Source of the DNA: Croceicoccus pelagius
Lineage (GTDB): Bacteria > Pseudomonadota > Alphaproteobacteria > Sphingomonadales > Sphingomonadaceae
DNA length: 64,000 bases
Assembly (NCBI RefSeq): GCF_001661915.1
Contig: NZ_LYWY01000040.1
Location: forward strand, 186,001-250,000
Direction of reading: 5' to 3'
The notes below the pieces were generated by a model. That model was given only the letters and a program-made list of their open reading frames with translations. It did no database searches and was not told where the DNA came from. Within the stretch, counting starts at the first letter, position 1; each line of letters begins with the position of its first letter. Below, one piece after another: positions 13,575 to 23,952 of the stretch. Position numbers and translations under genes: made by a program.

Positions 13575-13717
13575 TTCTTTTCCCCCGGAAGGATCGTTGG
13601 CAATTTTGCAGTTGCGAAGGGACTAGCCGCAGCCCCCCGCAATGTCGAGACGATCGCGTCGCTGCATCGCCGCCGCGGATAGGTGCGGTGTGTTGCAGCC
13701 TCGCGGCAATACGGTAC

Positions 13718-18665: not shown

Positions 18666-19133
18666 ATGGCAATGTCAGGCGGCAGCGATGATGGCTCGCC
18701 GATGATGGAAATGAACACGACGCCGCTTATCGACGTCATGCTCGTTCTCCTCATCATGTTCATCATCACGATCCCGGTCGCGACTCACGCGGTCAACATC
18801 GATCTCCCGGCTCCCAGCGACGTTCCCTCGAACGTCGATGTGAACCCGATCAAGAACAAGGTCGTGCTCACGCAGGACGGCCAGATCCTCTGGAACGGCA
18901 CTCCGCTGAACGAAGGCCAGTTCGTCGCAACGCTTCAGCAGTCGCTGGCGCTTCCGGTCGAACCGGAACTCCAGTTCCAGCCGGAAGAATTCGCGAGCTA
19001 TGACCTCTCGGCTTCGGTCCTGCGGATCATCAAGAGCTCGGGCGCTACCAAGTTCGGATTCGTCGGTAACGAACAGTTCCGTGAATTCGAAGCAGGCCCC
19101 AAGGGCGTGAACCCCACGACAAGCACCCGGTAA
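18666..19133 (+). CDS. exbD2: ExbD/TolR-type biopolymer transport protein, second copy
   Basis: A 155-aa protein: short cytoplasmic N-terminus, [18 protein letters not shown] with the functional Asp in the membrane helix, and a periplasmic ExbD domain with GATKFGFVGNEQFREFEAGPKG. It begins 30 bp after exbD1 with AAGGAGA before the ATG. Its helix-coding DNA (18701-18784) is almost identical to that of the third copy. A terminator follows 27 bp after the stop. Confidence 0.93.
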   Translation: MAMSGGSDDGSPMMEMNTTPLIDVMLVLLIMFIITIPVATHAVNIDLPAPSDVPSNVDVNPIKNKVVLTQDGQILWNGTPLNEGQFVATLQQSLALPVEPELQFQPEEFASYDLSASVLRIIKSSGATKFGFVGNEQFREFEAGPKGVNPTTSTR

Positions 19134-19160
19134 GGGAAGCACAAGGGGAAACCAGATCAG

Positions 19161-19187
19161 GGGCGGGCCGCAAGGTCCGCCCTTTTT
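19161..19187 (+). terminator. Rho-independent terminator after exbD2
   Basis: GGGCGGGCC-GCAA-GGTCCGCCC (9 bp, one G-U) followed by TTTTT. It separates the tonB-exbB-exbD1-exbD2 transcript from the third exbD. Confidence 0.88.
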
Positions 19188-19264
19188 CGTTTCATAACAG
19201 GTGTTTTTCACAGATCGGCAATTCGGTGGTACGATTCCCGTCCAGCAAGAGTGGGAGTGAGACC

Positions 19265-19726
19265 ATGGCCCTGAGCCTGAATGCCGACTCGCAACCGATG
19301 ATGGAAATGAACACGACGCCTCTTATCGACGTCATGCTCGTCCTCCTCATCATGTTCATCATCACGATTCCCATCGCGACACACCAGGTACCGATCGACC
19401 TGCCGGGGAAGAGCGCCCCCGTTATCGGTCCCTTGTCACCGGTAAAGAACAAGGTCGTGCTGACCAGTGACGACCGGATCCTGTGGAACGGCACCGAAGT
19501 AACCCGCGAGGGTCTTGCCGCGACGATCGACCAGTCGCTCCTGCTCAACCCCGAACCCGAACTTCAGTTCGAACCGGCCGAGGCCGCAAGCTATGACGCG
19601 TCGGCCAAGGTGCTGCGCACCATACGACAGTCGGGCGCGACGAAATTCGGCTTTGTCGGCAATGAACGCTTTCGTGAGTTCGAAAGCGGACCCAAGGGCG
19701 TCAACGCAATGGTGAGCGCCAACTAG
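19265..19726 (+). CDS. exbD3: ExbD/TolR-type biopolymer transport protein, third copy
   Basis: A 153-aa ExbD very similar to the second copy along its whole length: the same [18 protein letters not shown] helix, KNKVVLT, ILWNGT and SGATKFGFVGNERFREFE. The ATG at 19265 follows GGGAGTGAGACC; an in-frame ATG at 19226 lacks such a signal. It lies behind a terminator, so it either has its own promoter in the 77-bp gap or depends on read-through. It ends convergently 10 bp from the helicase. It is a likely tandem duplicate. Confidence 0.92.
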   Translation: MALSLNADSQPMMEMNTTPLIDVMLVLLIMFIITIPIATHQVPIDLPGKSAPVIGPLSPVKNKVVLTSDDRILWNGTEVTREGLAATIDQSLLLNPEPELQFEPAEAASYDASAKVLRTIRQSGATKFGFVGNERFREFESGPKGVNAMVSAN

Positions 19727-19735
19727 CCTCGAAGG

Positions 19736-22189
19736 CTATCCGCGGACCGGATCGTCGGGACGCATGGCGACACCGCCAAGCGTCTCGGCCTCCAGCAACA
19801 GTTCGTCATCGGCAGAGCCTGCGGGAAGAGTCTCGCGACCGATGACGACCATGACCGGTACGGCCAAGGGACTCACCCGTTCAAGCTGCACGTGGACGGT
19901 CTGCTCCGCCGCGCGGTCGAGCACGCCCGCCAGCCTGCCGATATCGGTCATCCGCGTCCGCGCTTCGGCCCAGGCGGCTTCGATCAGGACATGGTTCGGT
20001 TCGTACTTCTTCAGCACATCGTAGATCAGGTCGGTCGAAAAAGTGACCTGCTTGCCGGTCTTGCGCTTTCCCGGCTGCTGGCGTTCGACCAGCCCGCCGA
20101 TCACGGCGGCTTCCCTGAATGCGCGGCGCAGCAGGTGCGATTCCTGAACCCAGTCGACGAATTCGTGGGCAAGGATGTCGGGCGATAGAATCGACGCCGG
20201 GTCCTCGATCGGTTTCAGCCCCCAGACCGCGAGCGAATAGTCGTTCGCCACGAAGCCCAACGGCGACAGCCCCCTGTCCTCCATCCGCCGCGTGATGAGC
20301 ATACCCAGCGACTGATTCGCGTTCCAGCCCTCGAACGTATAGAACACGCTGTACTCGCGCTTGGCGTGGGGGAAGCTTTCGACCAGCAGCTCGTCCGGCT
20401 CCGGCAGGTGCGAACGCCAGTCCTGCACTTCCAGCCACTCGCGCACGTCATCCGGGAACCGCGACCACCCCGGCCGGTCGACCAGCATTTCGCGCACGCG
20501 ATCCGCGAGATGGGTCGTAAGCGGCATGCGTGCACCGCCATAGGACGGGATCATCACCGACTTCTTGGAGCCGCGAACGATCACTTCGCTCTCCTTCAGG
20601 CTTTCGACCTCAAGGCTTATGCCCGCGAACTGGAACGTGTCGCCGGGGCGAAGGGCGGCGGCAAAGCGTTCCTCAACCTTGCCTAGAGAGCGCCCGTTGC
20701 GAAACCGCACGGTCAGCATCTCGCCATCGATAATGATACCCGCATTCAGCCGGTGCCGCGCGGCCTGTTCGGGGTGCGTCAGGCGCCAGACGAAACCGCC
20801 TTCCCCGTCTGGCTCACGCGTGATGCGTTTGAACCGATCATAGGCGCGCAGGGCATAACCGCCGTCGGCCACGAAATTGACGACGCGGTCGAACAGAGTT
20901 TCGTCCACCCAGGCATAGGGGTGGCACGAGCGTATCTCGCGCAGCAGGTCCGTTTCACGAAACGGCGCCGCACAGGCGCAGCCCATCACGTGCTGGGCGA
21001 GGACATCGAGGCTGCCGGGGCGGAAATCCTCACCATCGCGCACGCCTTCCTCGACCGCGTCCTTGGCCGCCTGCGCCTCGAGGAACTCGAACCGGTTGCC
21101 GGGGACGAGAATCGCGCGGCTCGGCTGGTCGAGCCGGTGATTGGCGCGCCCCACGCGCTGCAACAGGCGCGAGGAGCCTTTGGGTGCGCCCATCTGGACA
21201 ACGCAGTCAATATCGCCCCAGTCCACTCCAAGATCGAGACTGGCCGTCGCGACAAGCGCGCGCAGCTCACCGCGCGCCATGGCCCCCTCGACCTTGCGGC
21301 GTGCCTCTACCGAAAGCGAGCCGTGGTGAATGCCGATCGGAAGGACATCCTCATTCACGTCCCAAAGCAGCTGGAAGATGTATTCGGCCAGAAAGCGCGT
21401 GTTGGTGAAGATCAGCGTGGTCCGGTTACGGCGGATCTCTTCGTAAAGTTGCGGCACGGCCCAAGCCGCCGCGTGCCCACCCCAGGGAATGCGCTCTCCC
21501 TCGGGCAGAAGGATCTCGATCACAGGCTCCGCGCCAGGCTCGCCGATCACTTGGCTGACAGCGTCGATGTCGCCCCAAGGGGCCAGCCATTCGCGATATT
21601 GCTCGGGATCGGAGACCGTCGCAGAGAGCCCGATACGGCGCATGTCCGGTGCGATCGCTTCCAGTCTTGCGAGCGCCAGCGCAAGCAGGTCTCCGCGTTT
21701 GCCGGTGGCAAAGGCGTGAATCTCGTCGATGACGATGCGCTTCAGCCCCGCGAACATTACGAAGCTTTCAGGATAGGACAGGAGCAGCGACAGGGATTCC
21801 GGTGTCGTCAACAGGACGTGCGGCGGCTTGGCCCGCTGGCGCGCCTTGCGCTGCGATGGCGTGTCGCCGGTCCGGCTCTCTACCCGGATGGGTAGTTCCA
21901 TCTCCTCGATCGGGACAAGCAGGTTGCGACGAACGTCGGTGGCAAGCGCCTTGAGCGGCGAGACGTAAAGCGTATGCAGCCCGTCATCGGGCGCGGCGCC
22001 ATCCAGCCTTTCGGGCGTGAAGGCTGCCAGCGTCGGCAGAAAACCCGCCAACGTCTTGCCCGCGCCGGTATCGGCGGTCAGCAGCGCGCTCTGCCCCGCA
22101 TCGTCGGCATCGAGCATTTCGGCTTGGTGCCGGCGGATACGCCAGCCACGGCCTTCGAACCATGCTTCTATGCTTTCGGGAATCGCCAT
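19736..22189 (-). CDS. lhr: Ligase-associated DEXH-box helicase (Lhr-Core type)
   Basis: Superfamily 2 3'-5' DNA helicase of 817 aa, implicated in DNA repair. RecA-like domain 1 has Walker A ADTGAGKTLAGF, motif Ia YVSPLKAL, motif II DEIH and motif III LSATV. Domain 2 has TRFLAEYIFQ and motif VI QRVGRANHR. A winged-helix and Lhr-type C-terminal domain follow, giving the Lhr-Core length (long Lhr is ~1500 aa). Usual partners (ATP-dependent ligase, exonuclease, PdeM phosphoesterase) are not in this window. It is convergent with exbD3. Confidence 0.92.
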   Translation of the reverse strand: MAIPESIEAWFEGRGWRIRRHQAEMLDADDAGQSALLTADTGAGKTLAGFLPTLAAFTPERLDGAAPDDGLHTLYVSPLKALATDVRRNLLVPIEEMELPIRVESRTGDTPSQRKARQRAKPPHVLLTTPESLSLLLSYPESFVMFAGLKRIVIDEIHAFATGKRGDLLALALARLEAIAPDMRRIGLSATVSDPEQYREWLAPWGDIDAVSQVIGEPGAEPVIEILLPEGERIPWGGHAAAWAVPQLYEEIRRNRTTLIFTNTRFLAEYIFQLLWDVNEDVLPIGIHHGSLSVEARRKVEGAMARGELRALVATASLDLGVDWGDIDCVVQMGAPKGSSRLLQRVGRANHRLDQPSRAILVPGNRFEFLEAQAAKDAVEEGVRDGEDFRPGSLDVLAQHVMGCACAAPFRETDLLREIRSCHPYAWVDETLFDRVVNFVADGGYALRAYDRFKRITREPDGEGGFVWRLTHPEQAARHRLNAGIIIDGEMLTVRFRNGRSLGKVEERFAAALRPGDTFQFAGISLEVESLKESEVIVRGSKKSVMIPSYGGARMPLTTHLADRVREMLVDRPGWSRFPDDVREWLEVQDWRSHLPEPDELLVESFPHAKREYSVFYTFEGWNANQSLGMLITRRMEDRGLSPLGFVANDYSLAVWGLKPIEDPASILSPDILAHEFVDWVQESHLLRRAFREAAVIGGLVERQQPGKRKTGKQVTFSTDLIYDVLKKYEPNHVLIEAAWAEARTRMTDIGRLAGVLDRAAEQTVHVQLERVSPLAVPVMVVIGRETLPAGSADDELLLEAETLGGVAMRPDDPVRG

Positions 22190-22245
22190 CGTCCCACCTT
22201 AACGAACGAAGGGGGAAATCAGTGCCGCAAAGGTTTGCAGGCAAA

Positions 22246-22277
22246 GAAAAAGGCCCGGTGGACAAGCCGACCGGGCC
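22246..22277 (-). terminator. Rho-independent terminator (small-RNA candidate or pgm)
   Basis: On the minus strand GGCCCGGT and ACCGGGCC pair around a 10-nt loop and are followed by TTTTTCTTT. It is 263 bp beyond the phosphomannomutase stop, a long way for its own terminator, and closes the small-RNA candidate described separately. Confidence 0.85.
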
Positions 22278-22348
22278 ATGAAGTTTTGGGAGAGGATGCC
22301 TGAAAGGCAGGATCTTTGTGCACTGCAGCGAGCCTTCTCGCAACTGCA
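22247..22348 (-). ncRNA. Candidate small regulatory RNA, about 100 nt
   Basis: On the minus strand a promoter-like pair TTGCAA-17 nt-GCTATT places the start near 22347. The predicted RNA has three modules: a GC-rich stem-loop (22325-22347, GCGAG/CTCGC with flanking GCAG/CTGC), a small stem-loop (22297-22309, TGCCT/AGGCA), and a single-stranded stretch with CCTCTCCC before the strong terminator. CCUCUCCC is complementary to purine-rich Shine-Dalgarno sequences, a pattern seen in alphaproteobacterial trans-acting sRNAs. There is no ORF on this stretch with a start signal. This is inference from sequence only. Confidence 0.5.
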
Positions 22349-22539
22349 AAAATAGCTACCGGACTTTCGTTTTTTGCAACGATGTCAATAAGCGTTCCCG
22401 ATCAGTCACTTAGAACATGAATCATTTTTCATCTTGTTCCAACATACTGACTTTTTGGGCTTTGAATCGCCCCTGTCCTGTCAAGCGAGACCGCCACAAG
22501 CCCGAATCACCATTCAGGCCCCCTGATTTGTGAACGATA

Positions 22540-23952
22540 TCAGTGAGAGGCCTGCGGGCCGCGTTTCAGGCCCGAAAGCGCCAGCTGATCGTCGATCTGC
22601 GCCATCAGGCGTTCAAGCCCCGCCTCACTGTCGCTTTCCGCGCGGGCGACCAGAACGTCCTGCGTGTTCGATGCGCGCAGCAGCCACCAGCCGTCGTCGT
22701 TCGTAACGCGAACGCCGTCAGTGTCGTTGACGTCGTCGGGGCTATCGGCCAGTCGCTCCTTCACCTCGTCGATTACCGCGAACTTGCGGCTCTCGTCCAC
22801 CTGGAAGCGCATTTCCGGCGTGTTGATCATGTCGGGCATGTCGCCGCGCAGCTGCGTCACCGACTTGCCCAGCCGCGCGCTCGCCACGAGCAGGCGCACG
22901 CCTGCGTAGAGCGCATCGTCGAAACCGTAGTATTCGTGCTTGAAGAATACGTGCCCGCTCATCTCTCCGGCCAGCGGCGCACCCGTCTCCTTCATTTTGG
23001 ACTTAATCAGCGAGTGGCCGGTCTTCCACATTAGCGGCTTGCCGCCATGCTCGGCAATCTGGTCGTAGAGCGCCCGGCTGGCCTTGACGTCCGCTATGAT
23101 GGTGGAGCCGGGGACGAGTTTGAGGAGATCCTCGGCGTAAATCATCAGGAGCTGGTCGCCCCAAATGACGCGCCCTTTCCCGTCGATCGCACCGATACGG
23201 TCGCCGTCGCCGTCGAAAGCCAGTCCGAAGTCGAGATGCTTCTCCGCGACAAGGGCCCTGAGATCGGCGAGATTCTTCTCCTCGGTTGGGTCAGGATGAT
23301 GATTAGGAAAATTCCCGTCGACATCGGTGAAGAGGGTAAAGTGCTCCCCTGGGAGCTTGGGGACCAGCCGTTCGATTGCCGGCCCCGCCGCGCCGTTCCC
23401 CGCGTCCCAACCGATCCGAAGAGTGGACAGCCGATCCTTCCCGGCAGCGTCCAGCCCGGCGATGGGTTCGAGGAGTCTCTCGATATATTCGGCCATGATC
23501 TCCCGGGTCTCGACCGAACCGGACCCGTCAAGCCAGTCACCGGCCGCGGCCATTGTCCCGATCTCGAGGATGTCGGCCCCAAAGAACGGCCGACCCTGAA
23601 ATACCATTTTGAAACCGTTGTAATTGGGGGGATTGTGGCTGCCAGTTATCTGAATGCCGCCATCCACATCTTCGGCTGAGGCTTCGGCGTAATAGAGCAT
23701 GGGCGTCGGCCCCATGCCGACGCGCACGACGTCGCACCCAGTAGAGGTCAGCCCCTCGCACAGCGCATGCTCCAGCATGGGCGAGGAGACGCGCCCGTCA
23801 TACCCGATCGCGACCTTCTTGCCCCCTGCCCGGCGCAGCAGCGTTCCGAAGCTGCGCCCGATTGCGCGTGCGTCGTCGGGGCCGAGAGTCTCTCCGATGA
23901 TACCCCGAATGTCGTATTCGCGCAGGACGGTCGGATCGAAGGTGTGGTTCAT
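22540..23952 (-). CDS. Phosphomannomutase/phosphoglucomutase
   Basis: Interconverts hexose 1- and 6-phosphates for GDP-mannose and UDP-glucose precursors of polysaccharide and lipid glycans. The 470-aa alpha-D-phosphohexomutase (AlgC/ManB type) has four domains. Visible motifs are the phosphoserine loop TGSHNPPNYNG, the metal loop FDGDGDR, the sugar-binding GEMSGH and the C-terminal phosphate-binding RASNTQDVLVARAES. The ATG at 23952 gives MNHTFDPTVLREYDIRG, the family N-terminus. Whether it prefers mannose or glucose phosphate cannot be settled from sequence. Confidence 0.95.
   Translation of the reverse strand: MNHTFDPTVLREYDIRGIIGETLGPDDARAIGRSFGTLLRRAGGKKVAIGYDGRVSSPMLEHALCEGLTSTGCDVVRVGMGPTPMLYYAEASAEDVDGGIQITGSHNPPNYNGFKMVFQGRPFFGADILEIGTMAAAGDWLDGSGSVETREIMAEYIERLLEPIAGLDAAGKDRLSTLRIGWDAGNGAAGPAIERLVPKLPGEHFTLFTDVDGNFPNHHPDPTEEKNLADLRALVAEKHLDFGLAFDGDGDRIGAIDGKGRVIWGDQLLMIYAEDLLKLVPGSTIIADVKASRALYDQIAEHGGKPLMWKTGHSLIKSKMKETGAPLAGEMSGHVFFKHEYYGFDDALYAGVRLLVASARLGKSVTQLRGDMPDMINTPEMRFQVDESRKFAVIDEVKERLADSPDDVNDTDGVRVTNDDGWWLLRASNTQDVLVARAESDSEAGLERLMAQIDDQLALSGLKRGPQASH

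Follow-up and report, generated by a model that had tools for sequence, protein, structure and literature searches.

The locus between pgm and lhr

The minus strand of the window (the whole 64,000-nt stretch of Croceicoccus pelagius DNA analysed here) carries a phosphoglucomutase/phosphomannomutase gene (pgm; 22540..23952) and, downstream of it, an lhr-type helicase gene (19736..22189), both assigned by Pfam; the helicase is 96% identical to its counterpart in Croceicoccus gelatinilyticus. The gap between them has 50% G+C compared with 63.9% for the window, in keeping with a preliminary description that had called it unusually AT-rich. It holds, on the same strand, a predicted SuhB/alpha-R8 RNA of about 61-63 nt (22247..22309). 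Positions 22237-22315 (minus strand) score 53.8 bits against Rfam family RF00519 (suhB/MmgR/alpha-R8), above the cut-off (gathering score) of 41, and the match spans the full model (1-77 of 77; E 2.9e-8 for 64 kb). We consider it close to certain that the locus encodes a SuhB-type RNA. It adds one more member to an established family rather than representing a novel type. The preliminary description had read the minus strand here as encoding a separate small RNA, one that exposes a C-rich stretch of anti-Shine-Dalgarno type and ends at an intrinsic terminator; the RF00519 match and the conserved parts bear this out, although the gene is shorter than proposed.

The layout of RF00519, a weak hairpin, a single-stranded anti-Shine-Dalgarno core, and a Rho-independent terminator, is present here in that order on the minus strand. 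The 5' hairpin, UGCCU-UUC-AGGCA (22297..22309), is paired in 95.0% of cells across 16 syntenic copies; the core AUCCUCUCCC (22288..22297) contains CCUCUCCC; and the terminator stem-loop (22252..22277), also listed by a terminator scan and paired in 96.1% of cells in the 16 syntenic copies, runs into a U-run at 22247-22251. The second stem-loop, the strong terminator, and the single-stranded stretch between them thus lie where they had been described, and they are conserved across copies. The RNAalifold consensus of 53 aligned copies has 13 pairs in all, confined to the terminator and a hairpin of four pairs. The 5' hairpin is nearly invariant among these copies and hence shows no covariation; changes on both sides occur at seven pairs, every one in the terminator stem. 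The core is invariant except for its last base.

These copies come from a scan of 157 loci for two fixed spellings of the core, the canonical and the local one; it gave 68 distinct copies and would miss intermediate spellings. CCTCTCC is found in 55 of the 68, with 16 copies between pgm and lhr and 39 elsewhere (37 of these with the full 110 nt upstream); the 53-copy alignment leaves out two that are cut by contig ends. The syntenic sample leans to one genus, with one copy each from 14 genomes and the rest supplied by two Tsuneonella. The common core of alpha-R8 RNAs is given as UUUCCUCCCU in the available text of one report (PMC12559287). Copies of this taxonomic family have AUCCUCUCC followed by C or T, and the 13 canonical-core copies stem from other families of the order. 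The spelling AUCCUCUCCC, common to the core-bearing copies of the family, is still complementary to Shine-Dalgarno sites, and we take it as a lineage variant because the curated RF00519 model still accepts the sequence.

Covariance-model searching in relatives, as the preliminary description had suggested, gave an RF00519 match in 55 of 60 (E <= 0.001), over the cut-off in 51. That description had also asked for conservation wherever the pgm-lhr order is kept; this is so in the 14 genomes of the genus, but it does not extend further. The RNA is not tied to lhr, because among 80 lhr loci, 63 of which are preceded by pgm in the same orientation, only six of the 63 carry the exact core in the gap; the core was not found in L051, L053, L079, and L099, four loci whose pgm and lhr genes are no more than 650 nt apart.

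In the genome of C. pelagius itself, two RF00519 matches exceed the cut-off, and a third scores 32.8 bits. The third (L003, G000:C9:82692-82769) has no CCTCTCC core and is perhaps another small RNA, or a terminator only. Within the window, the site TTTTGCAGTTGCG (13604-13616) was rejected, as neither a -10 element nor a hairpin was seen after it. Two other genomes of the genus, G003 and G012, have six RF00519 matches each (L021, L123-L128, and L142-L145); in G003, the sequence around the core is the same in two of them, both located on C2.

Promoter frame and extent of the RNA

Upstream of the hairpin, on the minus strand, lie a -35 element, TTGCGA (22338..22343), and, 17 nt after it, a -10 element, CACAAA (22315..22320). 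Both hexamers are weak when judged by the Escherichia coli consensus. In the 53 aligned copies, the TTG of the -35 is invariant. In core-bearing copies set out without gaps, a block like TTTYGCANTTGC, a 17-nt spacer, a -10-like element (CACAAA, CACATA, CATATC, CATATA, and similar), and the hairpin follow one another at constant spacing from the core; a few core-bearing copies deviate from the TTTYGCANTTGC-like block. The frame stands at constant distance in the 55 core-bearing copies and in 108 copies from 66 genomes of a wider draw of 99 family genomes. The pattern used for the latter required a TTG at the -35 position and, after 32 unconstrained bases, the hairpin together with the core, so that the TTG is built into the 108-copy count; an exact match was absent in 33 of the 99 genomes.

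A further conserved element lies upstream: a palindrome, GTTGCA-N5-TGCAAC, stands about 64 nt before the start in many siblings, and a degenerate copy of it is found here at 22365..22379 (minus strand). In many siblings it occurs together with TTTCGCACTTGC at the -35. A regulator cannot be assigned to it, because TTGCANNNNNTGCAA occurs once in the genome, elsewhere; the spacing of NtrC sites does not fit.

From the position of the -10 element, transcription is predicted to start near 22308 (22307-22309), and this placement of -35, -10, and start gives the length of about 61-63 nt. The preliminary description had instead started the RNA at 22348, exactly at a first stem, and given it about 100 nt and three stems, transcribed from a promoter TTGCAA-17-GCTATT. 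The promoter strings are present (22374-22379, 17 nt, and 22351-22356, minus strand), and a 104-nt form folds more stably than most shuffled sequences (z -2.07; 6 of 200 shuffles as stable). The GCTATT columns are, however, poorly conserved in the 16 syntenic copies, and the TTGC of TTGCAA, though conserved in them, belongs to another element, the degenerate palindrome just described. A sigma-70 scan did not list this promoter among its sites (1 site in 15 kb, elsewhere; 2.4 expected by chance). The stretch proposed as the first stem (22320..22347, minus strand) can fold, and its outer pairs are invariant within the genus, but the structure is not a conserved one: among the 16 syntenic copies it pairs in 81.9% of cells, compared with 81.7% for shuffled letters, and 268 of 500 shuffles did equally well; its innermost two pairs are broken in 15 and 12 copies, and the five of its ten pairs that never vary are uninformative either way. 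RNAalifold leaves the region unpaired in the 53 copies, and the fold of the 5' 30 nt varies between copies.

The same stretch in siblings is the bipartite promoter; the aligned family copies place the -35 and -10 where the 5' part of the longer RNA had been drawn, so that we read the first stem as promoter DNA, not expected within the RNA, and neither the start at 22348 nor the length of about 100 nt is supported. The stem would also partly close the core: in the predicted 102-nt form, three core bases are mostly paired (unpaired probability 0.27-0.34), whereas in the predicted 63-nt form every core base but the first is open. The longer model thus appears very improbable, and the short form has our strong preference. 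Still more remote is the idea that the RNA is a leader or attenuator of lhr instead of a separate transcript. It does directly precede lhr on the same strand, but the core lies between pgm and lhr in so few of the 80 lhr loci (six), siblings sit elsewhere in genomes, and a strong terminator stands 58 nt before the lhr start codon. The case of the first stem shows that an operator dyad within a promoter is able to mimic an RNA stem.

A likely PhaR operator across the -10 element

Across the -10 element of the short SuhB RNA lies TGCAGTGCACAA (22316..22327, minus strand), a perfect match to TGCRNYGCASMA, the consensus for PhaR (AniA) that was derived, as far as the available text tells, from footprints and promoter comparison in Bradyrhizobium (PMC6201568). 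The string TGCAGTGCA is likely, judging by sequence, to be part of a PhaR operator at the SuhB promoter. The perfect 12-mer occurs, in the same columns, in all 16 distinct copies between pgm and lhr, and in 1 of the 37 other full-length copies (L024). In the wider draw, 39 of 108 copies, from 26 of 66 genomes, have YGCRNYGCR at the operator position, and six further occurrences lie at other offsets, whereas 500 column shuffles placed it at the operator position in 7.5 copies on average and in 15 at most; the full 12-mer occurs in 25 of the 108 copies, always at that position. All these counts are inflated, because copies from related species are not independent.

The genome encodes PhaR (PF07879, 106.6 bits), a single phasin, and PhaC. 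A perfect consensus match lies 90 nt upstream of the phasin start, and another about 530 nt before the PhaC domain (the distance is to the domain, the start codon being ambiguous). The second suhB copy of this genome (L002, G000:C30) has a -10 without the operator; farther upstream, about 120 nt ahead of the -35, two perfect matches to the PhaR consensus form a palindromic pair (C30:229161-229175).

A match by itself proves little, because the genome contains 80 perfect matches (overlapping palindromes counted on both strands), compared with 18 for the reversed pattern. This abundance would suit a reading in which the RNA is as described but the conserved TGCRNYGCACAA is the site of another regulator, or a constraint of the promoter itself. 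The AT-rich arms of the Sinorhizobium meliloti PhaR motif point both ways, the right one fitting this promoter and the left one missing, and the second conserved palindrome upstream, for which no regulator can be named, also leaves room for such a reading. Against it stand the constancy of TGCRNYGCACAA in the 16 syntenic copies and its excess over column shuffles; the ordinary CATATA-like hexamers of siblings that lack the operator; the perfect match before the phasin gene; and the control of mmgR by PhaR in S. meliloti. According to the available portions of one report, the S. meliloti mmgR promoter is among those bound by PhaR in gel shifts, the exoL site is bound efficiently, and PhaR is sequestered by granules (PMC12542648); TGCAGTGCACAAAGA of the window is identical to a stretch in that exoL site. 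We therefore hold the alternative to be unlikely, about as probable as one might grant a serious minority view, and control by PhaR of the SuhB RNA between pgm and lhr to be rather probable from the sequence comparisons.

Candidate targets and relation to known RNAs

The core AUCCUCUCCC would pair with GGGAGAGGAU. Among the 14 genomes of the genus, GGGAGAGGA followed by ATG 2-11 nt later occurs at 89 sites, 7 of them in this genome, compared with 4 and 1, respectively, for the reversed control. We inspected 42 of the 89 sites and, by reading of the sequence, found a TonB-dependent receptor after nine. Both receptor-preceding sites of this genome (G000:C32:60764 and C25:240076) were confirmed by a Plug domain, and one receptor retains GGGAGAGGACTG-ATG in four genomes. 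A further GGGAGAGGA site of this genome precedes a gene for a Rieske-domain oxygenase; a convincing gene thus follows only three of its seven sites, and none was seen after the remaining four.

Receptor starts could be placed for 33 of 41 Plug matches; of the others, five were in loci truncated at a contig end and three yielded no start. GGGAGAG precedes 7 of the 33, whereas among 131 non-receptor genes of this genome, which are crude gene calls, it precedes 2 (Fisher p 0.0002). GAGG alone is also enriched, however (17 of 33 compared with 29 of 131), pairing with the 16S tail is likewise better for receptors (p 0.003), and the separation of receptors from other genes was equalled by 8 of 200 permuted cores, so that the signal is partly generic. 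As a target class the receptors are accordingly suggestive only. The Caulobacter crescentus SisA RNA represses TonB-dependent receptors via its core, as stated in the available text (PMC12559287), and we count this agreement in favour. Overall, receptor mRNAs seem, on these sequence matches, somewhat better than an even bet as the main targets.

Two adjacent ExbD-family genes (Pfam) lie beyond lhr at 18666-19723 of the window (plus strand), about 2.5 kb from the small RNA; the pair is of interest because TonB-dependent receptors are suspected as targets. The genome encodes hfq, and an open frame of 210 codons at G000:C9:3900-4325 (L295, minus strand) contains two tandem Hfq domains. Tandem Hfq occurs in some sphingomonads.

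What is available of the literature on related RNAs allows several comparisons. The SuhB RNA of Sphingopyxis granuli TFA, a member of the same order, is reported as 61 nt, which supports the short length proposed here; it represses translation in an Hfq-dependent manner by pairing to the thnR 5' UTR, and granules have been proposed to favour suhB transcription. Its known target, thnR, is a tetralin gene, and a PhaR operator goes without mention in the accessible part of that report (PMC6563040). Caulobacter SisA-D (alpha-R8) resemble the present RNAs in having several siblings with unrelated expression, the hairpin-core-terminator layout, and an anti-Shine-Dalgarno core, with direct repression of TonB-dependent receptors; they differ in the core, UUUCCUCCCU compared with AUCCUCUCCC here, and are restrained by the sponge CrfA, the accessible text making no mention of PhaR (PMC12559287). 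MmgR of S. meliloti belongs to the same Rfam family, has a PhaR-bound promoter near its start, and is linked to polyhydroxybutyrate, but it is 77 nt long, single-copy, and also under NtrC, is reported to act on phasins, and has the canonical core (PMC7143759, PMC8401924, PMC12542648, each as partly available). The AbcR (alpha-r15) RNAs of rhizobia are likewise anti-Shine-Dalgarno, Hfq-binding, and partly SuhB-like, but are described as having 114-120 nt and two anti-Shine-Dalgarno motifs (PMC7143759, in part), whereas here there is one, together with the full-length RF00519 match. A search of the open-licence literature, judged by titles and the beginnings of abstracts, found no link between SuhB and PhaR in sphingomonads.

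We propose, with reasonable confidence drawn from sequence comparison, that the locus makes a SuhB/MmgR RNA of about 61-63 nt that is repressed by PhaR and masks the Shine-Dalgarno sites of receptor mRNAs. A trans-acting RNA would be transcribed from the minus strand, beginning at 22307-22309 and ending at the terminator near 22247. PhaR bound across the -10 would repress this pgm-lhr sibling; as polyhydroxybutyrate granules accumulate, PhaR would be drawn away and the RNA made. Its open AUCCUCUCCC core, presumably with Hfq, would then pair to Shine-Dalgarno sites such as GGGAGAGGAU and block translation. In this way a filled carbon store would reduce further uptake.

Taken by itself, the RNA is typical of its group; the part of possible importance is the promoter, which would link a sensor of polyhydroxybutyrate granules to a post-transcriptional regulator in sphingomonads. 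We see an even chance that some sphingomonad SuhB siblings, among them the pgm-lhr copy of Croceicoccus, are wired to PhaR via an operator at the -10, so that the carbon store sets import by TonB-dependent receptors, while others answer other signals from the same promoter frame. If true, such selective wiring would offer a mechanistic basis for the stimulation of suhB by granules that has been proposed in S. granuli, and it could explain why genomes retain several nearly identical siblings.
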